38,539 nt of DNA from Syntrophobacter sp. SbD2 (GTDB lineage Bacteria > Desulfobacterota > Binatia > UBA9968): assembly GCA_945889495.1 (NCBI GenBank), contig CAMDBU010000045.1, positions 1-38,539 on the forward strand, written 5' to 3'. Below, piece by piece: positions 21,518 to 38,539 of this stretch (within the stretch, counting starts at the first letter, position 1; each line of letters opens with the position of its first letter). The notes under the pieces were generated by a model, which saw only the letters and a list, made by a program, of their open reading frames with translations, searched no databases and was not told the origin of the DNA. The translations under genes were made by a program, and so were the position numbers.

Positions 21518-22660
21518 TTACTTGGCACCGGCGACTTTGGTGAGGTAGTCGTCGACGAAGAACTTCTCAAGGCCGCCCGGCCCGTCTAGGTTGACGTTCA
21601 ACTTCGCCGCGCTGACTAACGCCTGAATATTTTTCTTGCCGAGCGCGATGGAGAAGCTGTCGAGGGTGTAGTCCAAGGATTTGCGCAGCACATTGACGTT
21701 GGCGTTGGGATCTTTTTTCGCCGCGGCGGCGAGGACTTTGTCTTTGCCGGTTTGAATCGCCGTCATGGCATTACGTAAGGCGCGCAGAAAGGCGACCACT
21801 TCGGCGGGATTGTTTTTTAACTTCTGCCGGTAGGTGACCACCACCATGAAGGGGAATTCCGGCAGCGCTTTGCCGGTTTCCAACAGCAGCGGGAAGCCGC
21901 GTTCTTCCATGACGACTTTTTCGTTGGCTGAGAAAGCGCCGGCGTGAATCACCCCGGACTCCAGCGCGTTGACCCGCGCCGGACTGTTGCCGGCGTACAT
22001 GATGCTGTAATCCTTGTCGCGCATGAGCCCCTTGCGCGCCAAGGCTTCGACGGTGGCGAACTCGGTGACGCCGCCGGCGCCGGTGACGCCGACCACCTTG
22101 CCTTTGAGTTGCGGTAAATTGGCGACGCTCTTGGCGCCGATCAGCACTTGATCGATGTAGGCGGTGTGGCCGCCGACGATGACCACCTCGGCGCCGCGCG
22201 CGATGCTGGTCACGGCGGTGACCCCCGCCATGATCGCGTAGTCGGCTTCGCCGCTTAGCAACGCCGCCATCACCACCGGCCCGCCGCGCACGTAGACCGG
22301 CCGGACATCGAGACCTTCAGCCGCGAAAATGCCGAAGTCGCGCGCTGTGCTCACCGGCAGTGAGGTGTTCCAGGATGGCGATGGATAGGCGACGGTGATG
22401 GTTTTGGCGTCGGCGGTGGTGAACGCCAACAGGGCGACTGGGCTGAGTATCAACGCAACTAAAATTGCTTGCCCCGCACTCCGAAGGTTCCTTTCCCCTC
22501 GACGGGGAAAGGTTAGGATAGGGGTGATCTTCTCTGCGCCATTGCCATCTGCCTCGCACCCCCACTCTAACTCTCCCCCGTCGAGGGGGAGAGAACCGGA
22601 GGTCGGATGAAGGAATGCAGAGCGCAATTGAATGTCTTCCGTTTCGCTAGTATTAATCAT
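21518..22660 (-). CDS. NMT1/SsuA-type substrate-binding protein (Rieske-associated, copy 2) with repeat in its leader
   Basis: The mature domain is a normal SBP: TITVAYPSPSWNTSLPV, FGIFAAEGLDVRPVYVRGG, LKGKVVGVTGAGGVTE. The frame opens with an ATG at 22660 that overlaps the Rieske stop (AATGATTAA), a coupling arrangement. But residues about 17-57 are the translation of a palindromic repeat (22487-22598), and the hydrophobic leader (about 64-85, ending ADA) comes only after it. No ATG or GTG lies between repeat and leader; a TTG at 22453 would remove the positive part of the signal. Either translation runs through the repeat or a rare start is used. Export may be impaired. Confidence 0.8.
   Translation of the reverse strand: MINTSETEDIQLRSAFLHPTSGSLPLDGGELEWGCEADGNGAEKITPILTFPRRGERNLRSAGQAILVALILSPVALLAFTTADAKTITVAYPSPSWNTSLPVSTARDFGIFAAEGLDVRPVYVRGGPVVMAALLSGEADYAIMAGVTAVTSIARGAEVVIVGGHTAYIDQVLIGAKSVANLPQLKGKVVGVTGAGGVTEFATVEALARKGLMRDKDYSIMYAGNSPARVNALESGVIHAGAFSANEKVVMEERGFPLLLETGKALPEFPFMVVVTYRQKLKNNPAEVVAFLRALRNAMTAIQTGKDKVLAAAAKKDPNANVNVLRKSLDYTLDSFSIALGKKNIQALVSAAKLNVNLDGPGGLEKFFVDDYLTKVAGAK
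22487..22598. repeat. Composite inverted repeat of two CCCC-TCGA-GGGG hairpins
   Basis: Outer units CCTTTCCCCTCGACGGGGAA (from 22490) and CTCTCCCCCGTCGAGGGGGA (from 22575) are each near-palindromes. Their inward flanks TTAGGATAGGGGTG and CACCCCCACTCTAA are complementary, so the whole block can fold on itself. It lies inside the annotated reading frame of the SBP leader. Confidence 0.8.
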
Positions 22661-23762
22661 TCGCCCGCGAATGCAGCCCGGCCAGCCGTTCGGTGCGTTG
22701 CCATCGCTTGAGCGGTTTGCCGTCGGCCAGCGCTTGCAGTTCGCGCTCCCAGATTTTTCGAATCAGGATGAGCGCGCGGTCGGAGCGGCCGAGCATTTCT
22801 TTTTTTCGGAGATCGAGTTCACCCTGGCCGACTTGAGTCGCGTAGTCTTGGATCCAGACGATGTTCGACCGCTCCGGTCCTTCGATGTCTTGAATGCGCA
22901 GTTCGCCGCGCAGCACCGCTTCGCCGATCTCTTTGGGCGAGCGGCCGAGTTTGCCTTCGCGGGCTTTGTGGCGGTTTTTATACGCCTCGCCTTCTTCGCC
23001 CTCGGTAATATGCGTGACGTCCAACTGAAAGCTGCAATGGCTGTTGTCGTCGATCGGCACGCGCCAGGCGAGATGATCGCGGTCGCGCTCTCTGAAGCAC
23101 AGAATGTTCGGCAAGCCATGCTGGGTGATATAGAGCCGGCCGCTCGGAAAGGTCGATTGCAAGAGCACGCCCCACTCGCTCTCTTCGACGTCGATCTCGG
23201 GAATCTCCGGCGGCCGGTTCATGTAAAATTCCGACTCGCGGTGGGTGAACGGAATGTGAATCGGATCGTTCTCCAGATTGTTGACGTAGTTGCACGGTCG
23301 GACATAGGTCTCGGCCCAGAGATTGTCTTTTTCGAAGTCGGGGTAGCGCGGCAACGGCGGCGGCGCGCCGTCGCCAAAGTAGACGAAGATCAGGCCGAGG
23401 TATTCTTCGGTCGGGCATCTACGGATGCGCATTTTTTCCGCGAACGATTCCTTTTCCGCCGGCTGTTCGACGCACTGGCCGCTGTGATCGAACTTCCAGC
23501 CGTGGAAGCGGCAGCGGATGGAGTCGTCTTCGATCCAACCGATGGAGAGTTGCGCCTGGCGGTGCGGGCAGCGGAAGTCGACGACGTGCGGTTTGCCGCC
23601 GTCGCCGCGATAGAGCGTGAACTGTTCGCCGAGAATCTTGATCGGCTTGGCCCAGCCGGGTTTCAAATCCTGCGCGCGGTAAACCGGATGCCAAAATTTC
23701 CGCATATAGCGGCCGGCCAGCGTGTCGGGGCCGGTGTAGTAGAAATCCATGAAGTTGACCAT
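22653..23762 (-). CDS. Rieske non-haem iron oxygenase, large subunit (copy 2)
   Basis: The start is set at the ATG at 23762 (MVNFMDFYYTGPDTLAGRYM), the usual opening of this family, with GGGAGA upstream. A frame extending to 23882 reads through a palindromic repeat and is not credible. In the 369-residue product the Rieske ligands are C65-x-H67 and C84-xx-H87; catalytic iron residues H169, H174 and bridging D166 lie in ENDPIHIPFTH. The stop overlaps the ATG of the downstream SBP. It is about as long as copy 1 and similar throughout, suggesting duplication of an SBP/Rieske pair. Electron-transfer partners are not encoded nearby. Confidence 0.93.
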   Translation of the reverse strand: MVNFMDFYYTGPDTLAGRYMRKFWHPVYRAQDLKPGWAKPIKILGEQFTLYRGDGGKPHVVDFRCPHRQAQLSIGWIEDDSIRCRFHGWKFDHSGQCVEQPAEKESFAEKMRIRRCPTEEYLGLIFVYFGDGAPPPLPRYPDFEKDNLWAETYVRPCNYVNNLENDPIHIPFTHRESEFYMNRPPEIPEIDVEESEWGVLLQSTFPSGRLYITQHGLPNILCFRERDRDHLAWRVPIDDNSHCSFQLDVTHITEGEEGEAYKNRHKAREGKLGRSPKEIGEAVLRGELRIQDIEGPERSNIVWIQDYATQVGQGELDLRKKEMLGRSDRALILIRKIWERELQALADGKPLKRWQRTERLAGLHSRAND

Positions 23763-23803
23763 GAGTGAAGATCTCCCTGCATCCAAAAGTTTTAGTTCGC
23801 GGG

Positions 23804-23835
23804 CCGTAGGGGCGAAAAATTTTTCGCCCCTACGG
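23804..23835. repeat. Perfect 16-base palindrome, GTAGGGGCGAAAAATTTTTC core
   Basis: Arms CCGTAGGGGCGAAAAA (23804-23819) and TTTTTCGCCCCTACGG (23820-23835) are exact complements with no spacer. Located between the UbiD stop and the Rieske start on the minus strand. It could act as a weak terminator or be a dispersed repeat; the T run is inside the stem. Confidence 0.85.
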
Positions 23836-23865
23836 GTCACCTTCGCAGTGGCGCAAATCTTTTTC

Positions 23866-25284
23866 TTATTTGCTAAATCCATACTCGGACCATTTGTCTT
23901 TGGCGCGATCGATAAACTCCTTGGGCACCCGGGCGGCGGGCGGGTAGGGGTGTTTGCGGGTGGCGTCGATCAGCATCTTGCTGCCGGCGCGGCGGCGCGG
24001 GTCGTGTTGTGGGATGTCGGCGGCGGCGGTGGAGGGGTCGACACCGGAGGGCACCACGCCGTCGACGAGAAAACTGTCGCGCGCCGGTTGGGCGCGAAAG
24101 CCCATGGCCCATTCGACTTGAAAGGGATTGCGCACGTCGATGTCGTCGTCGACGACAACGGTGAACTTGCCTTCCTTGTTCATCAGCGACCAGGCGCCCC
24201 AGGCGACTTCTTTTACTTGCTCGGGATATTCTTTCTTCATTGATATGACCAGCATGCCGCTGGCGCCACCGGCTTCGGTGAAGTGGACATCTTGCACCGG
24301 CAGGCCCAAGACGTTGCGCAGGTGGTGAAACAAGCCGGCGGAGCGGCTGAGGCTGCGGATGCAGCTCGATTCGCTGGGCGGCATTTGGCTTAAAAAAGAA
24401 TGATACACCGGCGCGCGTCTACGCGTGATGCAGGTGACGTCGATGACCGGCTGCTGGCCGCCGGGGCTCATGTAGCCGGAGAATTCGCCGAACGGGCCTT
24501 CCTGCTCGCGATAGCCGGCGCGCATGACGCCTTCGATGACGATCTCGGCGTTGGCCGGCACCTGCAGGTCGACGGTTTCGCATTGTACTAGCGGCACCGC
24601 TTCGCCGCGCAGGCCGCCGGCGACGGAGAATTCATCGGTGCCGTAGGGAAATTTGCTGATGGAAGTTAAGACGATGGCCGGGTCCATGCCGATGGCGATG
24701 GCGACGGGCATGTCCTGCTTGGCCGCTTCGTATTGGCGGATATGGCGCGCCGCATGCTGGGCACCGCCGACGTAGAGGCCGACATGCTGTTTGCCCTTCA
24801 TCTGAATTCTATAGGTCCCGACATTGCGCCGGCCGGTTTCAATGTCTTTGGTCACGACTACCGGTGCGGTGATGTAGGGACCGGGATCTTGGCTCGGTGT
24901 CCAGACCACTTGGGGCAGCGACAGCACGTCGATATCGGCGCCGCGGCAGATCAGTTCTTTGCACAGGCCGCTGTTCACCAACACCGGATCGATGGGATGG
25001 CGTTGGCCGTTCTCCCAGACCTGGGGAATTTTTTCGACGCTAGTCGACAGCGCGTGGGCGTAGATCGCCGGCGAACCGCCGATGACGCCGATGACCAGGG
25101 GAAACTTGCAGTCGCCGACTTGGCGAAAACCGAGAGCTGGCCGGTCGTTCCAGCCGTAGCGGTCGAAGGTGTGGCGGGTGATCGCGGACACTTCCCAGGA
25201 TGGATCGACGCGCTGCTCTATCCAGTGGAGTTTGCCGGAGGATTCTAAGCGCGCGAGATATTGTTGGAGATCGTTGTAGGGCAT
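23866..25284 (-). CDS. UbiD-family prenyl-FMN decarboxylase (copy 1)
   Basis: A 472-residue UbiD-like (de)carboxylase counted from the ATG at 25284 (MPYNDLQQYLARLESSGKL); TTG or GTG starts up to 25323 would add 13 poorly conserved residues. The catalytic set is visible: R159 in VGTYRIQM and E262/E267 in EGPFGEF, matching the Arg-Glu-Glu of characterised fungal Fdc1. Requires prenylated FMN made by a UbiX-type enzyme, not present here. It heads the minus-strand cluster of Rieske oxygenases and SBPs and probably removes, or adds, a carboxyl group on an aromatic or acrylic acid. A promoter candidate lies about 75 bases upstream. Confidence 0.92.
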   Translation of the reverse strand: MPYNDLQQYLARLESSGKLHWIEQRVDPSWEVSAITRHTFDRYGWNDRPALGFRQVGDCKFPLVIGVIGGSPAIYAHALSTSVEKIPQVWENGQRHPIDPVLVNSGLCKELICRGADIDVLSLPQVVWTPSQDPGPYITAPVVVTKDIETGRRNVGTYRIQMKGKQHVGLYVGGAQHAARHIRQYEAAKQDMPVAIAIGMDPAIVLTSISKFPYGTDEFSVAGGLRGEAVPLVQCETVDLQVPANAEIVIEGVMRAGYREQEGPFGEFSGYMSPGGQQPVIDVTCITRRRAPVYHSFLSQMPPSESSCIRSLSRSAGLFHHLRNVLGLPVQDVHFTEAGGASGMLVISMKKEYPEQVKEVAWGAWSLMNKEGKFTVVVDDDIDVRNPFQVEWAMGFRAQPARDSFLVDGVVPSGVDPSTAAADIPQHDPRRRAGSKMLIDATRKHPYPPAARVPKEFIDRAKDKWSEYGFSK

Positions 25285-25359
25285 TGGGGGCACTCTAGCC
25301 AAAATGGGATTTGCTTTCGACAACCTTGCGAGTATACAAACCGAGCGATGCTTAGCTCA

Positions 25360-26967: not shown

Positions 26968-27180
26968 TGGCCGACTTACCTTGTCATAGATCGTAACTCC
27001 GCTCGGTATTTTTCATTCCTCGCCGCGGTTTCGCCGCGCGATCCAAGCTGATTGCCGTTCCTTTCGCCGCGTAAGTCCGCGTGACTTGCGCCGGAAATGT
27101 TTTGCGTTTTCAGAATTTTGAATATAGGTATGGGACCATTCCGCCTTGGGAAACTTTTCCGCCGGTGTTTGGAGGATTCC

Positions 27181-27738
27181 ATGTTCAAAGTCGAAGCCAA
27201 TCTCAAAGAGATCGCGGCCAAGCAGTTGACCCAGCGCGCCGGGCGCAAGGAGGGCGCGCCGCGCCGGCCGGTGACCACGGTCAATTGCAAGGCGCTCCAT
27301 GGCTTGCAATTCCGCGCCACCGTGGAAGGGCATGAGTTTATTTCCGACGAAGGCGATGAGGCGGGTGGCCATGACGCCGGGCCGGCGCCGCTGCGCTATT
27401 TTCTCGGCGGCATCATGATGTGCCATCAGGTTTGGTGCGTGAAAAGCGCGGCGGTGGCCGATGTGCAGCTCGACCGGCTCGAAGGCGAGATCTCCGGTTT
27501 CGTCGAGGCCGGCGGCAGCGAAGGCGGCGAGGAGAAGGATCGCGGATTCGATCTGATCAAGTACACCGTGACGATTAAAAGTCCCAATCCGGCCACGGCG
27601 ATTCAATCGATCGTCGACGCCGCGACCAAGCGCTGCCCGGCGTTTGCTTCGGCGGCGCGCGCCATCCCCATCGAAGTGACGATCAAACTCAACGATCAGG
27701 AGCTTGGCATGAAACTCTACGACAGGAGAAAGAAGTGA
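27181..27738 (+). CDS. OsmC-family protein
   Basis: The start is set at the ATG at 27181 because TGGAGGA lies 5 bases upstream; a frame from 27097 lacks a ribosome site. The 185-residue product has the OsmC pattern GHEFISDEGDEAGGHDAGPA, then PLRYFLGGIMMCHQVWC with Cys residues at the position where OsmC/Ohr enzymes carry a reactive thiol. Classic members reduce organic hydroperoxides. Here its stop overlaps the GTG of the UbiD gene, so it is translationally coupled to a decarboxylase, which suggests an accessory role in that pathway rather than general stress defence. Confidence 0.85.
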   Translation: MFKVEANLKEIAAKQLTQRAGRKEGAPRRPVTTVNCKALHGLQFRATVEGHEFISDEGDEAGGHDAGPAPLRYFLGGIMMCHQVWCVKSAAVADVQLDRLEGEISGFVEAGGSEGGEEKDRGFDLIKYTVTIKSPNPATAIQSIVDAATKRCPAFASAARAIPIEVTIKLNDQELGMKLYDRRKK

Positions 27739-29150
27739 TTTTTAACGATCTGAGAGAATACATCGCCAAGCTCCAAGAGTTGGACGAGATCAAGAGTATC
27801 GACGGCGCCAGCTGCGAGCTGGAAATCGGCGCCATCACCGAACTGGCGTCGTTCCGCAAGCGTTGCCCAGCGGTGTTGTTCGATTCGATCAAAGGCCATA
27901 AGAAGGGCTTTCGGGTTCTGACCAACTTTCTGTCCAACCGCTTGCGCGAGCGCATGGTGTTCGGCGTGTCCAACGAGCTCACCGATCCCGAGGCGGTGCT
28001 CTACTGGAAAGAGCGGCTGAAACATTATGAGCCGGTGGAACCGGTGGAAGTGAAGGACGGCCCGGTTAAGCACAACGTCATGGTCGACGATCAGGTCGAT
28101 CTCACGCAGCTGCCCTGGCCGCGCTGGCACCAGCGCGACGGCGGGCCCTATATCTGCGCGACCTCGTCGGTGACCCGTGATCCCGAGTCCGGTTACATCA
28201 ACATCGGTTCCTACCGCTTCATGCTGCTCGGCAAAAATAAGATCGTCGCTCATATCGGTTCGGGCCATCATGGCGATGTCATTCGCAAGAAATATTGGGC
28301 CAAGGGCAAAGCCTGTCCGATCGCGATTTCGCTGGGCCAAGAGCCGTCCTTGCTGGTGGCCGCCGGCACTAATACCAATTGGGGCGTGTCGGAGTACGGC
28401 TTTGCCGGCTGGATGCGCGGTGCACCGGTGGAAATCACCAAGGGTGTGTTCACCGACCTGCCGATTCCGGCCACCGCCGAGGTGGTGCTCGAAGGCGAAA
28501 TGCTGCCGCCCTCGGCTGGCACCGAGATCGAAGGGCCGTTCGGCGAATTCTCCGGCTACTATGGCGGCGGCGCGCGACCGGCGCCGGTGACCATGATCAA
28601 AAGCATTCTCTACCGCAACGATCCGATCATTCTCGGTTCGCCGCCGTTTTTGGGCGCCAGCCGCGGCATTCTGTCGTCGCGCGGCATTCTCGTCTGGAAC
28701 GAACTGGACGCGTTGGGCATCCCCGACATTAAAGCCGTCAATTATTCCTGGGGCATGTGCATCATCTCGCTCAAGCAGGCCTATCCCGGCCACGCCATGC
28801 GCGCGGCGCACGGCGCCATCGCCGGCACCGCCGGTTACCATGGCCGGTTCGTCATCGTCGTCGACGAGGATATAGACCCGTATAATTTAGAGCAGGTGCT
28901 TTGGGCCGTTGCCACGCGTTGCGATCCGGAGAGCTCTTTGGACGTGGCGCGGCGCATCTGGAGTTACAAGATCGATCCGCGCCTGCCCAAGCAGAAAAAA
29001 GAGCTCGGCGACTACACCGGCGCGGTGGCGATCATCGACGCCTGCCGGCCCTATCATTGGATCGAAGATTTCCCGGCGACCACGCAAATCGCCGAAGAGC
29101 TGTTGAAGGAAACCAACGCCAAGTGGGGCAAGGCGATTGGCGAAGATTGA
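27735..29150 (+). CDS. UbiD-family prenyl-FMN decarboxylase (copy 2)
   Basis: A 471-residue UbiD-like enzyme beginning at a GTG whose last bases overlap the OsmC-like stop (GTGA), with AGGAGAAAG upstream. Catalytic residues are R161 in IGSYRFML and E266/E271 in EGPFGEF. Only moderately similar to copy 1 at 23866, with shared motifs SVAGG/FAGWMRG and GPFGEFSGY, so the two probably serve different acids. Substrate unknown. The next gene on the strand, after a 166-base gap with a repeat, is the molybdenum hydroxylase large subunit. Confidence 0.92.
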   Translation: MIFNDLREYIAKLQELDEIKSIDGASCELEIGAITELASFRKRCPAVLFDSIKGHKKGFRVLTNFLSNRLRERMVFGVSNELTDPEAVLYWKERLKHYEPVEPVEVKDGPVKHNVMVDDQVDLTQLPWPRWHQRDGGPYICATSSVTRDPESGYINIGSYRFMLLGKNKIVAHIGSGHHGDVIRKKYWAKGKACPIAISLGQEPSLLVAAGTNTNWGVSEYGFAGWMRGAPVEITKGVFTDLPIPATAEVVLEGEMLPPSAGTEIEGPFGEFSGYYGGGARPAPVTMIKSILYRNDPIILGSPPFLGASRGILSSRGILVWNELDALGIPDIKAVNYSWGMCIISLKQAYPGHAMRAAHGAIAGTAGYHGRFVIVVDEDIDPYNLEQVLWAVATRCDPESSLDVARRIWSYKIDPRLPKQKKELGDYTGAVAIIDACRPYHWIEDFPATTQIAEELLKETNAKWGKAIGED

Positions 29151-29177
29151 GAATCGGATCTCGGATTCGGATGAATT

Positions 29178-29258
29178 AGCCGCAAAGAACGCAGAGGACG
29201 CAAAGGTCGGAAAGTTTTGCAAAAATCTTTTCCTACCTTCGTGTCCTTCGTGGTGAAA
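29178..29258. repeat. CACGAAGG inverted repeat, divergent two-armed copy
   Basis: The right arm, CCTTCGTGTCCTTCGTGGTG (29236-29255, extending to 29258), matches the right arm at 13328. The left arm (29178-29210) has drifted to GCAAAGAACGCAGAGGACGC-type units, still roughly complementary. Confidence 0.75.
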
Positions 29259-29316
29259 CCCTCTTCCACAATAATATAGGCAGCGAAATTCAACGAACTA
29301 GCTCGACACGTATATT

Positions 29317-31695
29317 ATGGACTTTCCCATCAATCCGCCCATCGGCGAACGAGTCAGACGAAAAGAAACCGAGCGCTTCGTCTCCGGCACTGGCCGCTAT
29401 GTCGACGATCTGTTGCCGGCCGGGACGCTGCATGTGTCGTTCGTGCGCAGCTCCTGCGCGCATGCGCGGATTAAATCGATAGACGTCACGGCGGCCCGCG
29501 CCATGCCCGGCGTGCGCGCGGTTTATACCGGCGCCGACATCGCCGCCCATGTGAAGCCGCTGCGGGTAGGTGGCAGTTCGGTTTTACGGCCGGTGAAGCT
29601 TTATCCATTAGCCGTCGACAAGGTGCGCTATTTCGGCGAGCCGCTGGCGGTTGTCGTCGCCGACAACCGCTATCTCGCCGAGGACGCCATCGACATGGTG
29701 GCGGTGGATTACGAAATGTTGCCCGCGGTGGTCGATCCGGAAAAGGCGATGGAGCCGGGGGCGGCGCTGGTGCATGAAGAGGCCGGCAGCAACATCGTTT
29801 ATAAATTTCATTTCGCCACCGACGGCATCGACAAAGTGTTTCAAGACGCCGAAGTGGTTATCAAGGAACGCATCCGCAGCCACCGCATCACCGCCTGCCC
29901 GATCGAGCCGCGCGCCTACCTGGCGCACTACAACAAGGACGAGGACACTTTGACCATGTGGTCGGCGACGGCTAATCCGCATTCCTTGCGCGGCCGCATC
30001 GCTGAGATCATCGATTTCCCCGAGGGCAAGATTCGCGTCATCGCGCCAGATGTCGGCGGTTCCTTCGGCGTGAAGATTCAGACCTACCAAGAAGAGCTCT
30101 TGCTGCCCTATCTGTCGCGCGAGCTGGGCCGACCGATCAAGTGGTGCGAGACCCGCATTGAACACATGCGCAACGGCCGCCATGGCCGGGATCAGATTCA
30201 TTACGTCGAGATGGCGCTGAAAAAAGACGGCACCATGCTGGGGATTCGCGACAAGATCATCGCCGACATGGGCTCGACCTACACCGTCGACCACTCGATC
30301 CAGGCGGCGGCGCTGTACATGACCGGGGTGTACCAGATTCAAAATTATTCGGTCGACGCGCTCGGCATCGCCACCACCAAGACCACCCACGGCTCGTTGC
30401 GCGGCATCGGCAAGGCGGACGCATCGTATATTCTCGAGCGCTTGGTCGACATCGCGGCGCGCCAGTTAAAAATCGACCCCATCGAACTGCGGCTGAAAAA
30501 TTTCATTCCCGCCGAGGCGTTTCCCTATCGCAACGTCACCGGCGCGCTCTACGACAGCGGCCAGTATCATCTGGCGATGCGGCGCACCGCCGAGATGGCC
30601 GGCTACGACCGGCTGCGCCAGGAACAGATCGAGCTGCGCAAGCAGGGCATCTACCGCGGCATCGGCGTGGCGTTTGTCATGGAGCCGACGAGTTCGAGCC
30701 GGATTCACGCCACCGGCGGCTACGCTTCTTGCCGCTTGCGCATCGATCCGTCGGGGGCGGCGACGGTGTTCTCGAGCATGGGCGAACAGGGGCAAGGCCA
30801 CGAGACCACCATCGCCCAGATCGTCGCCAGCCAGACCGGCATTCCCTTCGACAAGATTACGGTGATTCACGGCGACACTTTGCCGACGCCCTATGGTTTT
30901 GGCACCGGCAGCAGCCGTTCTTCCGTCGTGCTCATGCCGTCGGCCTGGGTGGCCGGCAAATTGATGCGCGATAAAATGCTCGGCATCGCGGCGCGCCAGC
31001 TGAAAGTGCTGCCGGAAAATCTGCAAATCGACGGCGGCAAGGTTTTCGCCAAAGACCATCCCGAACAGTCCATCGCGGTGATGGAAATCATCCGCACTGC
31101 CTACGGCGCGATTCACTTGCTGCCGGAAAATATGGAACCGGGCCTCGAAGTCACCGGTTACTTTATCAATCCCAACATCGACTATACGCCGGACGACAAG
31201 GGGCGGATGAATACCTTTTCCAGTTATCCCTACGCCGCGGTGATCGCGGTGGTCGATGTCGATATCGAGACCGGCATGATCAAAATCGTCCGCTACTCGA
31301 CGGTGCATGACTGCGGCAACATGATCAATCCGCAGATCGTCGACACCCAGCAGCAGGGCTCGATCATGCAGGGCATCGGCGCGGCCTTATACGAAGAGCT
31401 GCGCTACGACGAGGACGGCCAGCTGATCTCATCGTCGTTCATGGATTACCGCTTGCCCTGCGCCGAGGAAGTGCCGGAGCTGCAACTGGAACATATTATT
31501 ACGCCCAATCCGTTCACCCCGCTGGGCGCCAAGGGCGCCGGCGAGACCGGCATGTTGGGACCGCCGCCGGCGCTATGCAGCGCGGTGGAAGACGCGTTGA
31601 GCCCGTTTGGCGTGAAGGTGCGCGAGACCCCGCTGACCCCGGATCGAGTTTTAAATCTTATCGAGAAAGCGCAGGCGACACCGGCCCATGGCTAA
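29317..31695 (+). CDS. Molybdenum hydroxylase, molybdopterin-binding large subunit (xanthine dehydrogenase/CoxL family)
   Basis: A 792-residue catalytic subunit. It opens IGERVRRKETERFVSGTGRY, has the cofactor motif GGSFGVK (247-253) and the catalytic glutamate E743 in GAKGAGETGMLGPP. The active-site loop reads THGSLRGIGKADA (357-369) where aerobic CO dehydrogenase has AYRCSFR. There is no cysteine, so it is not a CO oxidiser. The loop also departs from the common YRGAGRPEA, pointing to an unusual substrate, probably an aromatic or N-heteroaromatic ring or acid. It overlaps the small-subunit gene by 8 bases. No cofactor maturation genes are in the window. Confidence 0.93.
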   Translation: MDFPINPPIGERVRRKETERFVSGTGRYVDDLLPAGTLHVSFVRSSCAHARIKSIDVTAARAMPGVRAVYTGADIAAHVKPLRVGGSSVLRPVKLYPLAVDKVRYFGEPLAVVVADNRYLAEDAIDMVAVDYEMLPAVVDPEKAMEPGAALVHEEAGSNIVYKFHFATDGIDKVFQDAEVVIKERIRSHRITACPIEPRAYLAHYNKDEDTLTMWSATANPHSLRGRIAEIIDFPEGKIRVIAPDVGGSFGVKIQTYQEELLLPYLSRELGRPIKWCETRIEHMRNGRHGRDQIHYVEMALKKDGTMLGIRDKIIADMGSTYTVDHSIQAAALYMTGVYQIQNYSVDALGIATTKTTHGSLRGIGKADASYILERLVDIAARQLKIDPIELRLKNFIPAEAFPYRNVTGALYDSGQYHLAMRRTAEMAGYDRLRQEQIELRKQGIYRGIGVAFVMEPTSSSRIHATGGYASCRLRIDPSGAATVFSSMGEQGQGHETTIAQIVASQTGIPFDKITVIHGDTLPTPYGFGTGSSRSSVVLMPSAWVAGKLMRDKMLGIAARQLKVLPENLQIDGGKVFAKDHPEQSIAVMEIIRTAYGAIHLLPENMEPGLEVTGYFINPNIDYTPDDKGRMNTFSSYPYAAVIAVVDVDIETGMIKIVRYSTVHDCGNMINPQIVDTQQQGSIMQGIGAALYEELRYDEDGQLISSSFMDYRLPCAEEVPELQLEHIITPNPFTPLGAKGAGETGMLGPPPALCSAVEDALSPFGVKVRETPLTPDRVLNLIEKAQATPAHG

Positions 31696-32158
31696 GAGCA
31701 TCACGTTGACCGTCAACGGCAAATCCTACAGCGGCGAGGCGGACTCGCGCACTTTGTTAGTGCATTTTCTCCGTGACGCGTTAAGCTTGACCGGCACCCA
31801 TGTGGGCTGCGTGGTCGGCCGCTGCGGCGCCTGCACCGTCATGTGGAACGGCACGGCGGTGAAGTCCTGCATGGTGTTCGCCGTCCAAGCGGACGGCGAT
31901 GAGGTCGTCACGGTGGAAGGCTTGGTCAAGGACAAACGCTTGCATCCCTTGCAGCAGTCGTTTTGGAAAAACGACGCGGTGGAGTGCGGCTACTGCACGC
32001 CCGGCATGCTGATGTCCGCCTACGGTTTGCTGCAGAAAAATCGTAATCCGTCCGACGAGCAAATCAAAAAAGCGATCTCCGGCAATCTCTGCCGCTGCAC
32101 CGGCTACGGCAATATCGTCGCGGCGATCAAGGAAGCCGCCGGCAACTTCACGAAATAA
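31688..32158 (+). CDS. Molybdenum hydroxylase, 2x[2Fe-2S] small subunit
   Basis: The 156-residue CoxS-type subunit has both clusters: plant-type ferredoxin ligands C41, C46, C49 and C61 (GCVVGRCGACTV), and the helical-bundle ligands C100, C103, C135 and C137 (CGYCTPGM, NLCRCTGY). It passes electrons from the molybdenum centre to the FAD subunit. Its ATG lies inside the end of the large-subunit gene. Unusually, the FAD-subunit gene does not follow directly; two SBP genes stand between. Confidence 0.96.
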   Translation: MAKSITLTVNGKSYSGEADSRTLLVHFLRDALSLTGTHVGCVVGRCGACTVMWNGTAVKSCMVFAVQADGDEVVTVEGLVKDKRLHPLQQSFWKNDAVECGYCTPGMLMSAYGLLQKNRNPSDEQIKKAISGNLCRCTGYGNIVAAIKEAAGNFTK

Positions 32159-32218
32159 CCGAGCCGCCATGGTGAGCATCTTCCAAACCGTTTTCCGTCA
32201 CCGGGCGGGAGAGCTAAG

Positions 32219-33238
32219 ATGCGCTTGATCTATCTGTTGGCGTTGATGTTGTGCTTCCGCCCACCGTTGGCGGACGGCGCCGAAGCGCTCAAGAAAATTC
32301 GCATCGCGTCCAAGGGCGCCGGCGAAACTTTGCTGCCCTATATTATTCCGCAGCGCTTGGGTTTCTATCGGGAAGAGGGGCTGGATGTCGACGCCATTGT
32401 CACCCGCGGTACGGTGACCACCCAGGTGGTGGTGAGCGGCGCGGTGGACTACAGCAACGGTGGTTCGATTCCGGCGATGCTCGCCGGCGCGCGCTTGAAA
32501 ATATTGCTGATTAGCACGGACAAGCCGGCGCAGCATCTGGTGACCAGCAGTAAGATCGGTAGTCTCAAACAACTCGCCGGTAAGACCATCGCGGTGTCCG
32601 ATGCGTCGGGTAATTCGACGTTGCTTTTGCGCGAGCTGTTGGCGAAAAACGGCGTGCCGCAGGACAACCTGCAGTTCCGCGCTCTGGGCGACCAGGCGGT
32701 GCGCTATGGAGCCTTGTTGGGCGGCGCGGTGGACGCGACCATGCTGTCATTTTCCACCGCCAAACAAGCCGAGGCCAAAGGCTTTCGCATTCTCGCCTAT
32801 AGCGGCGATCATGTGTCGTCACTCAGCGCCAACCTGGAAACCACCGACGATAAGATTCAGAACTCGCCGCGGGAGGTTTACGGGGTGGTTAAAGCGACTC
32901 TCAAGGGCCATCTATTTTTTCACCGCAATGCCAACGAGACCGTCAAGTTCATCATGGAGGTCGCGCGCATCAACAATCCCAACGAGGCCCGCGAGGTGTG
33001 GAGCGAACGCAACAAGCAGGCCTCCGAGCTGGCGCGCATGGGTAGGGCTTCCGACGAGGCGCTGATGACCAATGTCGAGCGCGTGCGCGACCAGATGAAG
33101 ATGGTCGGCGCCGGCGTGCGCGTTAAAGAAAAGATGACCTTGGACCAGGTCTACGATTTTTCCTTCGTGCAAAAAGCATATGAAGAAATTCAAGCCAGCA
33201 AGTGGGACCCGATGCGCTACGGCTATGTGAACCGATGA
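32219..33238 (+). CDS. NMT1/SsuA-type substrate-binding protein, tandem copy A
   Basis: A 339-residue secreted SBP with a signal peptide ending about residue 20 (ADGAE). Landmarks: LKKIRIASKGAGETLLPYII, RLGFYREEGLDVDAIVTRG and GAVDYSNGGSIPAMLAGARL, then SDASGNSTLLLRELL. It is roughly two-thirds identical by eye to the next gene, so the pair arose by tandem duplication. It is embedded between the small and FAD subunit genes of the molybdenum hydroxylase, implying it handles that enzyme's substrate. No permease or ATPase accompanies it. Confidence 0.92.
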   Translation: MRLIYLLALMLCFRPPLADGAEALKKIRIASKGAGETLLPYIIPQRLGFYREEGLDVDAIVTRGTVTTQVVVSGAVDYSNGGSIPAMLAGARLKILLISTDKPAQHLVTSSKIGSLKQLAGKTIAVSDASGNSTLLLRELLAKNGVPQDNLQFRALGDQAVRYGALLGGAVDATMLSFSTAKQAEAKGFRILAYSGDHVSSLSANLETTDDKIQNSPREVYGVVKATLKGHLFFHRNANETVKFIMEVARINNPNEAREVWSERNKQASELARMGRASDEALMTNVERVRDQMKMVGAGVRVKEKMTLDQVYDFSFVQKAYEEIQASKWDPMRYGYVNR

Positions 33239-33272
33239 GCCGGCGCGGCGTTAAGCGGAAAGGAGAACGACG

Positions 33273-34295
33273 ATGCCATTCTTAATCGCGATGTTTTTAC
33301 TCTGTTGCGGACTGAGCGACGCCTTGGGCGCCGAAGCGTTGAAAAAGATCCGCATCGCCTCGAAGGCGCCGGGCGAATCGTTGCTGCCCTACATAATCGC
33401 CCAGCGGCTGGGCTTCTACCGCGAAGAAGGCGTCGACGTCGATGTCATCGTCACCCGCGGCACGGTGACCACTCAGGTGACCGTGAGCGGCGCGGTGGAT
33501 TACAGCAACGGCGGCTCGATCCCGGCGATCCTCAGCGGCGCGCGGCTGAAGATTCTTCAAGTCAGCACCGATAAGCCGTCCCAGTATCTGGTCGTGTCGC
33601 CCAAGATTACCACCATGAAGCAAATCGGCGGCAAGGTGATCGCAACTTCCGACGCCTCGGGCAATTCCACTTTGCTGTTGCGTGAGTTGCTGACCAAGAA
33701 CGGCATCGCCGTGGAGAGCGTGCAGATGCGCGCGCTGGGCGAGCCGGCGGTGCGCATGGGCGCGATGTTATCGGGCACGGTGGACGCGACGATGATCTCC
33801 GTCGGCATGGCGCGCCAGCTCCAGGCCAAGGGCTTTCGCATCCTGGCCTACAGCGGCGACTATGTTTCGTCCTTGAGCGCCAATTTGGAAACCAATGAGG
33901 ACAAGATTCAAAACGCGCCGGACGAAGTCCTGCGGGTGGTGCGGGCGACGCTCAAGGGCCAAATGGTGTTTCACCGCAATCCCAATGAGGCGGTCAAGTT
34001 CATCATGGAGATCCTGCGCCTGAACGACGTCAACGAGGCGCGCGAGATCCACCGGCAGCGCGACAAGGAAGCTTCGGATCTGGCTAAGATCAGTTTAGCC
34101 AGTGAAGAGTCAATGAACGCCAACATCGACCGGGTGCGCGAGCAGATGCGCGCCATGGGCGCGCCGATTCGCATCAAGGGCGCGGTCACCCCCGATCAAG
34201 TCTATGACTTTAGCTTCGTCAAAAAAGCCTACGAAGAGATCCGCGTCAGCAAGTTCGATCCGATGCGCTACGAATACAGCAAGAAAGCGATGTAA
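33273..34295 (+). CDS. NMT1/SsuA-type substrate-binding protein, tandem copy B
   Basis: A 340-residue paralogue of the gene at 32219, with a short signal peptide (about 1-19, ALGAE) and a strong ribosome site AAAGGAG. It shares RLGFYREEGVDVDVIVTRG, GAVDYSNGGSIPAILSGARL, ASGNSTLLLRELL and the C-terminal VYDFSFVKKAYEEI. Differences cluster in residues about 160-210 (lobe 2), where ligand specificity often lies, so the two copies may bind different but related compounds. The FAD-subunit gene begins 3 bases after its stop. Confidence 0.92.
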   Translation: MPFLIAMFLLCCGLSDALGAEALKKIRIASKAPGESLLPYIIAQRLGFYREEGVDVDVIVTRGTVTTQVTVSGAVDYSNGGSIPAILSGARLKILQVSTDKPSQYLVVSPKITTMKQIGGKVIATSDASGNSTLLLRELLTKNGIAVESVQMRALGEPAVRMGAMLSGTVDATMISVGMARQLQAKGFRILAYSGDYVSSLSANLETNEDKIQNAPDEVLRVVRATLKGQMVFHRNPNEAVKFIMEILRLNDVNEAREIHRQRDKEASDLAKISLASEESMNANIDRVREQMRAMGAPIRIKGAVTPDQVYDFSFVKKAYEEIRVSKFDPMRYEYSKKAM

Positions 34296-34297
34296 CC

Positions 34298-35179
34298 ATG
34301 TACCCAGCTTCGTTTGAATACTTGAAGCCCCAGAGCATTGAAGAAGCGATGGCGCTTTTGACCGAGCATGGCGAGGACGCCAAGCTGCTCGCCGGCGGGC
34401 AGAGTCTGGTGCCGATGATGAAGCTGCGCATGGCGCGGCCGAAATACTTGATCGACATTCACCGCCTGGCCGATTTGAATTATATCCGCGAAGAAGCCGG
34501 GCAGATTCGCTGCGGCGCCATGACGCGCCATATCGAGATCGAAGAATCGGTGCTGATTCGCGCGCAGCTGCCAATGCTGGCGGTGGCCGCCAGCGAGATC
34601 GGCGATGTCCAGGTGCGCAACCGCGGCACCATCGGCGGCGGCCTGGTGGAAGCCGATCCCTGCGGCGACTATGCCCCGGTGGCGCTGGCGATCAATGCGC
34701 AATTTAAATGCGTCGGACCGAAAGGCGAGCGGCTGATTCCGGCGGCGGAGTTTTTTAGCTTCGCCTACACGACCACGCTGGGCGCCGACGAGATTCTCAC
34801 TGAAATAATTTTCCCGCTGCCGGCCCAAGACAGCGCCGGCGTCTATCTCAAGCTCGAACGGGTAGCCGGCGATTTCGCCATCGTCAGCGCGGCGGTGCAG
34901 TGTGCCGTCGATAAAAATGGCGTCTGTAGCGCCATCGGCATCGGCAGCGCCGGCGGCGGCACCGTGCCACAAAAGGCGCTGGCCGTCGAAGCGTTGTTGC
35001 GCGGCCAGAAAATCTCTCCGGAATTGCTCGCCAAAGCCGGCGAGCTTATTCAGGTCGACGCGGAACCGATCGAAGACATGCGCGGCTCGGCGGCCTACAA
35101 GAAGAAAGCGCTGAGCGCGATCCTGCGCCGGGCGATTAGCGAAGCGCTGCGCCAGGCTGAGGCCAAGCGGGTTTCGTAG
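34298..35179 (+). CDS. Molybdenum hydroxylase, FAD-binding medium subunit
   Basis: The 293-residue CoxM-type subunit has the FAD motifs AGGQSLVPMMKLR (32-44) and TIGGGLVEADP (about 110-121), and the C-terminal CO_deh_flav domain (AIGIGSAGGGTVPQKA). It would complete the three-subunit enzyme with the genes at 29317 and 31688. The second flavin motif is intact. Its ATG is 2 bases past the preceding SBP stop, so it is translated from the same message. Confidence 0.95.
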   Translation: MYPASFEYLKPQSIEEAMALLTEHGEDAKLLAGGQSLVPMMKLRMARPKYLIDIHRLADLNYIREEAGQIRCGAMTRHIEIEESVLIRAQLPMLAVAASEIGDVQVRNRGTIGGGLVEADPCGDYAPVALAINAQFKCVGPKGERLIPAAEFFSFAYTTTLGADEILTEIIFPLPAQDSAGVYLKLERVAGDFAIVSAAVQCAVDKNGVCSAIGIGSAGGGTVPQKALAVEALLRGQKISPELLAKAGELIQVDAEPIEDMRGSAAYKKKALSAILRRAISEALRQAEAKRVS

Positions 35180-35189
35180 GCAGCGCGGC

Positions 35190-36188
35190 ATGGCGAAGTT
35201 CGTTGGCCGGTTGGCAACTGTTCTAGCCTTGGCGCTCGCGCCGGGAGTTGCCTTTAGCGCTCAGAGTCCGGCGCCCGCCACGGTCGTCATCGCCTACACT
35301 TCATTGTCGCCGCAGTACGCGCCGGTTTGGATCGCCCATGACGCCGGTCTGTTTCGCCGTAACGGCATCAACGCGCAATTGGTTTACATGCGCGGCGGCA
35401 TTCTCGCCACCCAGGCGTTGGTCAGTAACGACGTCAATTTCATCAACGCCGGCGGCGGCGGTGTCGTCGATGCGGTGCTAGGCGGCGCCGAGATTGTCCT
35501 GGTGGCGAGCCCGATTAACCAGGAACCGCAGGTGCTGGTGGCGCGAAAAGAAATCAAAGAGATCGCCCAGCTCAAGGGCAAGAAGCTGGCGGTTAATAGC
35601 CTTGCCGGTCCGGCGATTCTCTCATTGAAGATGATCTTGGCGGCGGCCGGTCTCGATGCCGAGCGCGATGTCAGTTATTTAGCCGTGGGACCGTCGGCGA
35701 GCCGGTTCGGCGCCATGCAGTTGGGCCAGGTCGACGCGACCACGTTGGCGCCGCCGTTTACCTTGGCGGCGCGCAAGGCGGGCTACCAGTTTTTCGACAG
35801 CGCGGCGGCGCTGAAAGATGCCGAACTGCCCAACGGTGCGCTGGCGACCAGCCGCAAATATTTAGAAGCTGAGCCGGTGGCGACCGAGATGGTGATCAAA
35901 TCGCTGATCGAGGGGATTCATTTCTACAAGACCGAGAAAAATAAAACCGCGGCGATTCTAAAAAAATACATGCGCCTGGATAACCCCGAGGAGACCCAAG
36001 AGAGCTACAATTTTTACGTTAAATTGTTCGCCGAGAAGCCCTACCCGACGGCCAAGGGGATTCAAACCATTCTCGATTGGTCCAAGCGCGCCGACGCGCG
36101 CAAAGCGACCCCGGCGCAGTTCATGAACACCCGCGCCATCGCGAAGCTCGACAAGCAGGGATTTATTGACGGCTTGTACCGGAGGTAG
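35190..36188 (+). CDS. NMT1/SsuA-type substrate-binding protein
   Basis: A 332-residue secreted SBP with a signal peptide ending about residue 24 (AFSAQ). Landmarks: VVIAYTSLSPQYAPVWIA, AGLFRRNGINAQLVYMRGG, LKGKKLAVNSLAGPAIL and the ending AIAKLDKQGFIDGLYRR. Distinct from the tandem pair just upstream and closer in layout to the SBP at 10047. It starts 10 bases after the FAD-subunit stop, so it belongs to the same operon. It is the third SBP of this hydroxylase cluster. Confidence 0.92.
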   Translation: MAKFVGRLATVLALALAPGVAFSAQSPAPATVVIAYTSLSPQYAPVWIAHDAGLFRRNGINAQLVYMRGGILATQALVSNDVNFINAGGGGVVDAVLGGAEIVLVASPINQEPQVLVARKEIKEIAQLKGKKLAVNSLAGPAILSLKMILAAAGLDAERDVSYLAVGPSASRFGAMQLGQVDATTLAPPFTLAARKAGYQFFDSAAALKDAELPNGALATSRKYLEAEPVATEMVIKSLIEGIHFYKTEKNKTAAILKKYMRLDNPEETQESYNFYVKLFAEKPYPTAKGIQTILDWSKRADARKATPAQFMNTRAIAKLDKQGFIDGLYRR

Positions 36189-36249
36189 CGGTGGGAAAGT
36201 TTTCGTCATGGTTAACCGGCATACAGGTTCCGCTATCATTCGAATTAAC

Positions 36250-36278
36250 CTGGATACCCGCCTGCGCGGGTATGACGG
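36250..36278. repeat. GGATACCCGC...GCGGGTATGACG hairpin element, copy 2
   Basis: CTGGATACCCGC, short loop, GCGGGTATGACGG. Same element as 13462-13490 with a compensatory A:T for T:A swap in the stem. Confidence 0.85.
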
Positions 36279-36320
36279 AAATGGCAAGGATGCGATGAAC
36301 ATGGTAGTTCCGAGTCCGAA

Positions 36321-36376
36321 AAACGGTTGGAACGATTTGAACGGCTGGAACGGTTGGAACTGGAACGGTTGGAACG
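36321..36376 (+). repeat. Short tandem array of AACGGTTGG-like units
   Basis: About six imperfect units of 6 to 9 bases (AACGGTTGG, AACGATTTG, AACGGCTGG, AACGGTTGG, AACTGG, AACGGTTGG) lie end to end, 18 bases before the cupin ATG. No gene is supported here. Confidence 0.85.
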
Positions 36377-36394
36377 TGTTCGGAAGTTAATAAG

Positions 36395-37531
36395 ATGGAA
36401 GAACGTTGGCCTTGGGAAGAAGAAGGTAGCCGGGAATCCGGTGATCCGTTGGCGCACCAGCGCCACGAAGCTGAGATCAGAGAGCAGATGCCGCGGGTGG
36501 TCCAGTTGCTGCCGGTGCAAGGCACCGTCATGGGCAGCATCAGTCCGCATCAGACCGGCGATATCGTCTGCTACGATATTCTCAAGCGCGCGCCGGTGTA
36601 CGATCTGACTTCGCACTTCTCCGACATCCAGCCGAAAGCGCCGGCGCGCGGCGCGCACCGCCATATCAGCGCGCCGACCTTGTTCTGCTTGAACGGCCGC
36701 GGTTGGGAGATCAACGACGGCAAGACTTATTCCTTTGGCACCTACGACATGCTGGTGGTGCCGCCGTTCACGATTCATCAGCATGGCGGCGACGACGATC
36801 TCGGCTGCCAGATCTTCGTGCCGCAGAGCCGGCTGTTTAGCTTGATGGGGCTGACCAAGCGCGAGCAAATTAAATTTGGTGACAATCCGACCTTTCCCCA
36901 GGGCACCGAGCCGCTCTATGGCGAGCAAGGTAAATTGATCGGCTACAAAATCAAAAAAGGCGTGCTCGGCATTAAAGAAGACATCGACGTCATGCTCGGC
37001 GCCGATCAGAAAACCGAAACCGTCTTTCGCGCGCGCAAGCAAGCGGCATCTTGGGACGGGCCGGTGGACAATATTTACGACCGCTATTTGAAACTGTTCC
37101 ACGACGAGAGCGTGTTCTGTAATAACGTCACTCATGTGATCGCCTATGAAGAGCAGCCCTGGGAATGGTGCCGGCAGGGGCGATTGAAATGGTTCACCCA
37201 TCCGGAGATCAACAGCGCGGCGCGCCGGGTGTGGCTCTACATGCAAGAAATTTCTCCCGCCAGCCGCTCGGGTAAGCACCGTCATATGACCGAAGAACAG
37301 GTGCTGGTTATCCAAGGGCGCGGTCATGACATCCACGATGGCCAGAGATGGGACTGGGAGCGCGGCGATCTGGTCAGCATTCCGGCCATGGCGGAGCACC
37401 AGCATTTCAATGACGACCCGGAGCAGCCGGTATTATTTTTATCCTCGATGCCGAGCGTCGGCGTTGGCTTGGGCATCGGCGGCATCGAGCAGTTGGATGA
37501 CGCGCCGGAATTCGCCGAGGGAAAACGTTAA
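36395..37531 (+). CDS. Bicupin protein, gentisate-dioxygenase-like layout
   Basis: A 378-residue cytoplasmic protein with two cupin domains. Cupin 1 (about 85-145) has GAHRHISAPTLFCLNGRG with HxH ligands and a later HQH (FTIHQH). Cupin 2 (about 300-360) has GKHRHMTEEQVLVIQGRG and AEHQHF. Both keep His ligands, so both could hold iron. Layout and length resemble gentisate and hydroxynaphthoate/salicylate ring-cleaving dioxygenases, but the identity is not certain. It is followed after 2 bases by a second bicupin gene. In the operon it would follow molybdenum-dependent hydroxylation, fitting a ring-opening step (inference). Confidence 0.8.
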   Translation: MEERWPWEEEGSRESGDPLAHQRHEAEIREQMPRVVQLLPVQGTVMGSISPHQTGDIVCYDILKRAPVYDLTSHFSDIQPKAPARGAHRHISAPTLFCLNGRGWEINDGKTYSFGTYDMLVVPPFTIHQHGGDDDLGCQIFVPQSRLFSLMGLTKREQIKFGDNPTFPQGTEPLYGEQGKLIGYKIKKGVLGIKEDIDVMLGADQKTETVFRARKQAASWDGPVDNIYDRYLKLFHDESVFCNNVTHVIAYEEQPWEWCRQGRLKWFTHPEINSAARRVWLYMQEISPASRSGKHRHMTEEQVLVIQGRGHDIHDGQRWDWERGDLVSIPAMAEHQHFNDDPEQPVLFLSSMPSVGVGLGIGGIEQLDDAPEFAEGKR

Positions 37532-37533
37532 CC

Positions 37534-38394
37534 ATGGCCGACAAACAGCGACAAGACAGCGACGCCGAGCACTACTACGACTACGAGGCGCGCTTCATCA
37601 AGCAGAAGCGCGAACAGGAGCGGATCAATTTTTTGCCCCGGGTGATCCAGCCGGCGATGTTTGCCAAGGGCGAGTTCGCGCTTGGCGACATGCGCGTGTT
37701 TAGCCGCTACACGGTGGCGCCGCTCAGCACGCTGACCTGCGGCTTTGTCGATCTGGCGGCGGGCGCGCGTAGTGAAGCTCGGCGTATGATTCCATCGGTC
37801 TACGCTTACATCGTCGAGGGCCGCGGCGAATGCGTCCAAGACGGCGTGGCGTATTCGGTGGGCGCCGCTGATCTAGTGCTGGTGCCGCCGTATACGATTT
37901 GGCAACTGATCGCGAATTCCAACCATGGTCTGCGCGCTTGGCTGCCGCAGATTAGACTATGGCATGGGCAGGGGCTGTTGCGGCGGGACGGTGGCGCCGC
38001 GGACGATGACGCCAAGACCGGCGCAATTGTTCACGCGCGGCGGCAAGTGCAAACCCCGGCGGCGGGCACGACGCGCTACGATTGGTTCTTGACCCGGCTC
38101 GCCGAGGAGAATCGCGTCGAGCGCGAGGCGCCGCGGCTGATTCGCGCCGCCGATTGTCCTTGGGAAACGACCCGGCAGGGGAATTTGCAATTCTATTTGA
38201 ACCGCTGGACGGAAACGGCGGCGAGCGGATTGGACGTCATGGCGCAGCGCATCGATGCCGGCGCGCGCAGCGGCGAGCACCGGCATATTTTTGAAGAGCT
38301 GCTGCTGGTGGTGAGCGGCCGCGGTTACGACTTGCACGAGGGCACGCAGCATCGCTGGCAGGCCGGTGATTTGATCTGCGTGCCGCCGATGCTA
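37534..38394 (+). pseudogene. Second bicupin gene, 3' end lost to an IS630-family insertion
   Basis: 287 codons precede the insertion junction; the frame then closes in a TAG contributed by the element (38398-38400). Cupin 1 (about 75-135) reads ARSEARRMIPSVYAYIVEGR, where the metal-binding HxH is missing. Cupin 2 keeps GEHRHIFEELLLVVSGRG but stops at LICVPPM, just before the region where the sister gene has its last His ligand (AEHQHF) and about 35 more residues. The product would thus have lost a metal ligand in its only canonical domain. It is paralogous to the gene at 36395, and the two may have formed a heteromer before the insertion. Confidence 0.85.
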
Positions 38395-38539
38395 GTGTAG
38401 TGTCTCTGAATTAATAGTAGTTACTGTTCGTCTAAGGGGCAAGCGGAGGTTTTGATGCGAGTTGCCCCAGCCATTGAGTTGACCGAGAGTGAGATTGTTC
38501 TTCTGAAGACGTGGTCGCGAGGCGGCACAACCCCGGCGC
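38395..38539 (+). mobile_element. IS630-family insertion sequence, left end (runs off window)
   Basis: The element begins right after a TA dinucleotide (38393-38394), the normal IS630/Tc1-type target, with GTGTAGTGTCTCTGAATTA as the presumed terminal repeat. A transposase gene starts 60 bases in. Only the left end is visible. Confidence 0.8.
38455..38539 (+). CDS. IS630-family transposase, N-terminal fragment
   Basis: The first 28 codons (MRVAPAIELTESEIVLLKTW, then SRGGTTPA) match the typical opening of IS630-type transposases, where a helix-turn-helix DNA-binding region follows. GGAGG lies 5 bases before the ATG. The DDE catalytic part lies beyond the window. Confidence 0.85.
   Translation, partial: MRVAPAIELTESEIVLLKTWSRGGTTPA

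Follow-up and report, generated by a model that had tools for sequence, protein, structure and literature searches.

An NMT1-type solute-binding protein gene between the iron-sulfur and FAD subunit genes of a molybdenum hydroxylase operon in an uncultured bacterial family

Why should genes for solute-binding proteins (SBPs) stand among the subunit genes of a molybdenum hydroxylase? The question is raised by a 38,539-nucleotide stretch of DNA, here called the window, which is deposited as Syntrophobacter sp. SbD2 (contig CAMDBU010000045.1 of assembly GCA_945889495.1). The host is an uncultured soil or groundwater bacterium, and the window is contig 45 of its 5.64-Mb draft genome (239 contigs, 95.6% complete). 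On the + strand the gene for L, the molybdenum-cofactor subunit of a xanthine-oxidase-family hydroxylase (29317..31695), is followed with an 8-base overlap by the gene for S, the subunit with two [2Fe-2S] clusters (31688..32158). Two NMT1/THI5-type SBP genes, SBP1 (32219..33238) and SBP2 (33273..34295), then part S from M, the FAD subunit (34298..35179), and a further NMT1-type gene, SBP3 (35190..36188), lies 3' of M. Open reading frames (ORFs), Pfam domains and the successive spacers of -8, 60, 34, 2 and 10 bases all agree with the order L, S, SBP, SBP, M, SBP that an earlier, sequence-only reading had reported between 29317 and 36188; that observation is confirmed, and the interpretation placed upon it is partly supported. 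In relatives the conserved variant is S-MBL-SBP-M, where MBL denotes a metallo-beta-lactamase-fold gene, and L-S-SBP-SBP-M is local to the window. We lean towards reading it as an operon for the catabolism of an aromatic or N-heteroaromatic acid, in which the SBPs capture the substrate for permeases encoded elsewhere.

L was sought in 97 genomes including the window's own (G000), and cluster orders were obtained from translated searches of the relatives' contigs. An L of at least 60% identity was found in seven other genomes, all of the window's family (7 of its 24 other genomes). Six of these seven orthologous clusters (G001, G017, G010, G019, G015 and G012) hold an SBP2 orthologue between S and M, and the six genomes represent five genera (g1, g7, g13, g12 and g9) of one family. 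The order is OsmC-UbiD-NicX-like-L-S-MBL-SBP2-M in G001, G017, G010 and G019 and UbiD-L-S-MBL-SBP2-M in both G015 and G012, in the latter at a contig start. The seventh cluster, that of G009, is reshuffled: no two of L, M and S adjoin, and genes for an ATP-binding cassette (ABC) permease, an ATPase and an SBP_bac_6 protein are interleaved. UbiD lies 5' of L in 6/7 clusters, a NicX-like gene stands between UbiD and L in four, and MBL is present in all seven, occupying the place of SBP1 in the six S-x-SBP-M clusters. Two SBP genes between S and M were seen in none of the seven and the double SBP is found in the window alone, so the conservation of L-S-SBP-SBP-M across species that had been proposed as a check was not borne out. 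The parting of S and M by an SBP gene is nevertheless real and no accident of one assembly, as six clusters from other assemblies hold it too. Being conserved in six of seven clusters, SBP2 has a link to the hydroxylase module that holds in five genera of the family.

SBP2 lies on the contig of L in all eight genomes with an L of at least 60% (the window's own included). Among the 34 other genomes of the order, 8 have an orthologue of it (51-79%), which in seven of them shares the contig of L. Apart from the eight genomes with L, the only genome of the order with an SBP2 of at least 50% is G004 (window's genus, 67% complete), where SBP2, in two pieces round a gap, shares a 4.3-kb contig with M, SBP3 and cupin 1. 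Broken reading frames were met in L of G001, M of G015 and UbiD of G017 (two overlapping pieces), which may be draft errors or real damage.

Beyond the group, a script found an NMT1-type SBP gene between S and M in 0 of 94 S-M pairs, and by this count the split exceeds chance. The pairs were drawn from 103 loci, namely 12 other M loci of the window's genome, 21 of relatives and 70 named contigs; 16 loci gave no pair and some more than one, and L lies between S and M in many of the gaps above 150 bases (L071-L074 and L078 were left out of the pair count as they are on the same contigs as L031-L035). Despite the SBP richness of the window's own genome, none of its nine other S-M pairs holds an NMT1 SBP gene between the two. 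The outside loci carry compact L/S/M sets in several orders, such as M-S-L, L-M-S, S-L-M and L-S-M. At the next-nearest loci (C409 of G017 and C308 of G012, L 51%) an NMT1 SBP gene lies directly 5' of L, with S and M contiguous. In the wider phylum, four of 395 evenly drawn genomes (the window's own and G009 included) gave an L match at E <=1e-200, and the best outside the family reached 47% identity. A contig of a Chloroflexi metagenome-assembled genome (L075) brings together a NicX-like gene (58%), OsmC, two L genes (50%) and UbiD, with no S or M recognised on the stretch examined, which suggests that the module exists outside the family.

The sequence-only reading had seen in the arrangement a fixed link between substrate capture and hydroxylation. 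This stands for the SBP gene between S and M, which is conserved and specific to the group. It does not stand for the remainder, as SBP1 is missing from that place in the six S-x-SBP-M clusters, SBP3 was seen, among the cluster stretches examined, in the window's genus only, the MBL and NicX-like genes come and go, and G009 is reshuffled.

All three SBPs match PF09084 (NMT1) above its gathering score, and none gave a TctC match (tripartite tricarboxylate transporter (TTT)/Bug type) at E 0.001. SBP1 and SBP2, the conserved one directly 5' of M, share 68% of residues and 69% of bases, and SBP3 shares about 25-28% of residues with either; SBP3 orthologues are confined, among the cluster stretches examined, to G001 (78%) and G004 (74%), both of the window's genus. 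The periplasmic binding protein fold is shown for SBP2 only, by a predicted AlphaFold2 model (pLDDT 87.1, pTM 0.84; 11 sequences in the alignment). Its best PDB matches include 3qsl and binding proteins for thiamin, sulfonates and a pyrimidine; binding proteins for taurine and pyrroloquinoline quinone also match its fold, as do Thi5 and DszB. As judged by eye and without a signal predictor, hydrophobic starts resembling signal peptides are present in SBP1-3 and in none of L, S and M. No permease or ATPase that would complete an NMT1/THI5 ABC importer was found among the operon genes scanned; on the window's contig the permease family PF00528 is matched only at 14017 and 14937, adjoining an SBP_bac_5 gene.

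The hydroxylase is recognisably of the LSM type of the xanthine oxidase family, its three subunits carrying the expected domains: Ald_Xan_dh_C and MoCoBD_1/2 in L, PF00111 (Fer2) and PF01799 (Fer2_2) in S, and PF00941 (FAD_binding_5) and PF03450 (CO_deh_flav_C) in M. The cysteine motifs of S are present and the GAKGAGETG motif of L is identical in all eight compared rows, window included; its Glu is the residue that we take to be catalytic. The best PDB matches of L include CoxL (8uem), quinoline 2-oxidoreductase (1t3q) and 6-hydroxypseudooxynicotine dehydrogenase (Kdh, 7dqx), and E748 of KdhL offers a parallel for the active-site Glu (PMC8305194). L, S and M fall below every NCBIfam equivalog cut-off, so that no substrate can be assigned to them. 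Aerobic CO dehydrogenase was rejected for L on its scores (TIGR02416, 588.5 against a cut-off of 991.15; NF040766, 579.3 against 950), and the other named equivalogs for the three subunits were likewise rejected on their cut-offs. Form I CoxL carries the loop AYxCSFR. At the corresponding place, matched by eye without an alignment to CoxL, L reads THGSLRGIG.

The operon extends beyond 29317-36188 and forms a collinear + strand set from 27097 to 38400. Upstream (27097-29150) are an OsmC-like gene (27097..27738, PF02566), which heads the conserved cluster, and, overlapping it by 4 bases, a UbiD-family decarboxylase gene (27735..29150; PF01977/PF20695/PF20696, with TIGR00148 above cut-off). Downstream (36395-38400) lie two cupin genes. 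Cupin 1 (36395..37531, PF07883) is a two-cupin protein with a distant likeness to gentisate 1,2-dioxygenase, its best PDB match being 3bu7 (E 1.5e-12, residues 264-348), and has orthologues in G001, G019 and G004; SBP3 and the cupins were sought on cluster stretches alone, cupin 2 also in the window's own genome. Cupin 2 (37534..38400) is broken off within its C-terminal cupin at a multicopy repeat, where the sequence ends. This repeat (38395-38539) occurs at 7 places in the genome with 100% identity over 140-145 bases, at least 4 of them at contig ends; probably it is an insertion element, and the contig broke off because of it. The NicX-like gene of the relatives has as its sole PDB match 2,5-dihydroxypyridine 5,6-dioxygenase (E 4.3e-6 over 159 residues), with a weak M29 match below cut-off. 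Judged from such families, UbiD leads to an aromatic or heteroaromatic acid, the relatives' NicX-like protein to a pyridine and the cupins to a dihydroxylated ring as possible substrate classes. The cluster looks catabolic and was matched to no described one, in keeping with the earlier suggestion of an undescribed catabolic module.

What is directly established is which genes are present and in what order, the conserved position of SBP2 between S and M, and the cofactor motifs of L and S, to which the predicted fold of SBP2 is added. From these a route may be pictured. The SBPs would be exported, bind the acid in the periplasm and pass it to an ABC permease, which is placed elsewhere because the operon yielded no permease gene. 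Inside the cell L-S-M would hydroxylate the ring in the cytoplasm, UbiD would decarboxylate it and a cupin (in the relatives perhaps the NicX-like protein) would open it. The SBPs and L-S-M are probably on opposite sides of the membrane and linked by the permease, since only the SBPs have signal-like starts. As far as gene content can tell, the ABC permease, ATPase and SBP_bac_6 genes interleaved with the enzymes of G009 tie uptake to the module. Besides these uptake genes and the separated L, M and S, contig 97 of G009 (loci L036 and L182) carries several UbiD and NicX-like genes, MBL, OsmC and MoaA.

How the window came to differ from its relatives can be outlined. The ancestor probably had the order OsmC-UbiD-(NicX)-L-S-MBL-SBP2-M; the lineage leading to the window would have lost NicX and MBL, with SBP1, a diverged SBP2 paralogue, in the former place of MBL, and SBP3 would have been gained, probably within the genus. 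The window's genome, for all its 95.6% completeness, holds no close relative of the MBL and NicX-like genes, the best matches being of 30% and 24% identity. In the gap between S and SBP1, 10 bases past the S stop, stands ATGGTGAGCAT, which is the MBL gene start in G001 and with one base free also starts MBL in G017, G010 and G015, not in G019; the whole window has a single copy of this 11-base pattern, where 0.05 would be expected. When the gap was aligned with the relatives' MBL starts, an 18-base stretch (32169..32186, + strand, reading M-V-S-I) matched that of G001 at 15 of 18 bases. Of 2000 shuffles, 14 reach the score for G001, and 39, 78, 84 and 264 reach the scores for the four remaining relatives. 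The stretch, short as it is, is most simply read as a possible remnant of the beginning of a lost MBL gene.

The SBP2s of the window, G001, G017, G010, G019 and G015 are 76-95% identical to one another, and SBP1 is 67-72% identical to them; to the outer members G012 and G009, SBP1 and all the close SBP2s are about equally distant. A tree places SBP1 inside the SBP2 group (99/97). A recent tandem copy of the window's own SBP2 is unsupported, as SBP1 is about equidistant from all its close orthologues, and for the same reason SBP1 is probably an old paralogue or a transferred gene and not a fresh copy. The kinships of the operon's genes conflict, the window's UbiD being nearest to that of G010 (85%) and the UbiD of G001 to that of G015 (86%), yet L pairs the window with G001 (91%); the G017 row was unused in the UbiD comparison because its UbiD there is a paralogue. 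The conflict hints at recombination within the operon.

The NMT1 family is common, being present in 12 of 14 named control genomes, but its expansion here is a larger surprise than the gene order. In the window's genome there are at least 150 scored matches, all above cut-off, out of 482 first-look candidates. SBP genes were detected with a hidden Markov model (HMM) built from seven window SBPs and with BLAST labels. A 400-kb sample (20 kb from the start of each of the 20 largest contigs) holds 26 NMT1 SBP genes, which extrapolates to about 370 per genome, and the 38.5-kb window holds 8, whereas 67 loci from other taxa, 1.32 Mb in all, yielded 3 with the same HMM. By the loose first-look measure, 25 genomes of the family have 42-482 candidates against 16-61 in 10 other genomes of the order. 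PF00528 has 70 matches in the window's genome; 9 of the 150 listed SBP genes have such a match at most 3 kb away, and 15 have one at most 5 kb away. For 22 of the 26 sampled SBP genes a same-strand ORF lies at most 150 bases away. Of the 28 such neighbours (chosen by length, so that a few may be non-genes) 6 are NMT1 SBPs; among the other 22 about half belong to metabolic-enzyme families, about 4 to other SBP families and 1 is a helicase, the rest having no listed match. The families include amidohydrolase (twice) and, once each, UbiD, luciferase-like monooxygenase, enoyl-CoA hydratase, MmgE/PrpD, thiamine pyrophosphate enzyme, glutathione S-transferase, GFA, TENA and glyoxalase; PF00528 and ABC_tran are absent from the 25 neighbour families listed, the most that the listing holds. 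The habit of placing SBP genes beside metabolic genes runs through the whole genome, and the arrangement is thus not peculiar to this operon. A keyword search of top-ranked open-licence literature met no report of an NMT1 SBP expansion or of SBP genes between molybdenum hydroxylase subunit genes, which does not establish absence from print.

A tentative picture, to which we give somewhat less than even weight, is that the Bug/TTT expansions have a counterpart among ABC-type SBPs. This uncultured family would carry up to hundreds of NMT1 SBPs, most without a permease of their own and many placed in catabolic operons as dedicated substrate receptors that share a few permeases; in the present module a receptor gene would have become fixed, in several genera, between the genes for the iron-sulfur and flavin subunits. 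Should SBP2 bind the compound that is degraded, hundreds of operon-borne receptors could give substrate clues for the enzymes of an uncultured lineage, and a one-receptor-per-pathway scheme with shared permeases would have arisen in ABC-type SBPs as well as in the TTT family.

Such abundance invites the objection that NMT1 SBP genes are simply so numerous that some land in operons without any functional tie. The densities in the 400-kb sample and the window, set against those at the loci from other taxa, speak for it, as do the many unrelated genes that SBPs adjoin and the failure to find SBP1 or SBP3 in any cluster of another genus; mere background is nonetheless unlikely, for the place of SBP2 is kept in 6/7 orthologous clusters across five genera and none of the nine other S-M pairs of the same genome has an NMT1 SBP gene between its members. 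A rather less probable explanation is that the SBPs act as sensors, signalling the presence of substrate to a membrane kinase instead of feeding a permease. AioX is a sensor SBP of this kind for arsenite oxidase, which is itself a molybdoenzyme. AioX structures (6esk, 6esv and 6eu7) do appear among the fold matches of SBP2, at ranks 45-50, and of the 150 listed NMT1 matches 141 are without a listed PF00528 match within 3 kb and 135 within 5 kb, but the nearest two-component genes among the window genes scanned, at 130-3199, are 24 kb off.

That the SBP-like proteins are themselves pathway enzymes with a binding-protein fold, as Thi5 and DszB are, is very doubtful: chains of both are among the top fold matches of SBP2, against which stand the signal-peptide-like starts seen by eye and the sequence similarity to transport-type SBPs. 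Least credible of all is an assembly or binning error that parts S from M. The draft is fragmented into 239 contigs and the double SBP occurs in the window only, but six other assemblies have S and M apart with an SBP gene between them, the 69% of bases shared by SBP1 and SBP2 are too few for a collapse or chimera, and the junctions lie inside the contig.

The favoured reading, a catabolic operon whose SBPs serve permeases encoded elsewhere, has several points to contend with. The 3' end of the operon is hidden, as cupin 2 is cut at the repeat. The similarities of NicX and the cupins are distant, the SBP ligand is not readable from sequence, and no equivalog cut-off is passed by L, S or M. As for the window's history, SBP1 is found at its place in the window only and the tree does not fix its position within the SBP2 group, the presumed MBL relic is 18 bases long and weakly supported by four of the five relatives, and the operon's genes have mosaic histories. 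Transcription, export and transport are inferred from the genes.

Among known systems, CO dehydrogenase, quinoline 2-oxidoreductase and Kdh have the L, S and M subunits and their domains in common with the window's enzyme and differ in that here SBP genes (in the relatives also MBL) part S and M. The sequence-only reading held that in known operons the three subunit genes are adjacent. This is contradicted by the nic cluster of pAO1-type plasmids, if the listing of kdhL, pnh and kdhMS in a figure legend is taken as gene order (PMC10494377); on that legend a catabolic gene apparently parts the subunit genes of one molybdenum hydroxylase there as well, although there an enzyme gene parts L from MS and in the window SBP genes part S from M. 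TphC is an SBP of a catabolic operon whose membrane partners tpiBA are encoded elsewhere (PMC8556258); like the window, the tph operon has an SBP gene without a membrane partner, but TphC is of the TTT type, and the window's SBPs are of the NMT1/THI5 type and lie between subunit genes. Massive genome-wide SBP expansion is shared with Rhodoplanes sp. Z2-YC6860, for which 434 TTT SBPs are reported (PMC5994714); that of the window's genome concerns the NMT1 family and a different, uncultured lineage. Bug69 and Bug27 of Bordetella bind quinolinate (PMC11452294) and, like the window's SBPs, belong to a large family; the Bug proteins have ties with pyridine compounds and with the genes for their use. 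They are of the Bug type and linked to NAD metabolism, with no mention of a molybdenum hydroxylase in the abstract, whereas the window's are of the NMT1 type.

An Rfam scan of the window gave 0 matches, and scans for promoter-like and terminator-like signals did no better than shuffles (3 against 4.0 expected and 15 against 14.5 expected), so no transcript boundary is claimed. The 2- and 10-base spacers around M had been said to show cotranscription; the spacers are correct, and genes so near one another are likely to be cotranscribed, though their spacing is no demonstration of it. Elsewhere in the window SBP genes stand near a pair of short-chain dehydrogenase/reductase and amidohydrolase genes and adjoin two Rieske oxygenase genes. 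The latter lie on the - strand at 17801-25323, each with its adjoining NMT1 SBP gene, together with a second UbiD and a 335-aa protein (20563-21570) that has a weak SsuA-family match and nothing better. In G001 a 221-aa protein (L037:3866-4531) encoded about 360 bases 5' of OsmC resembles, by eye, a GntR-type regulator and is a candidate regulator of the cluster.

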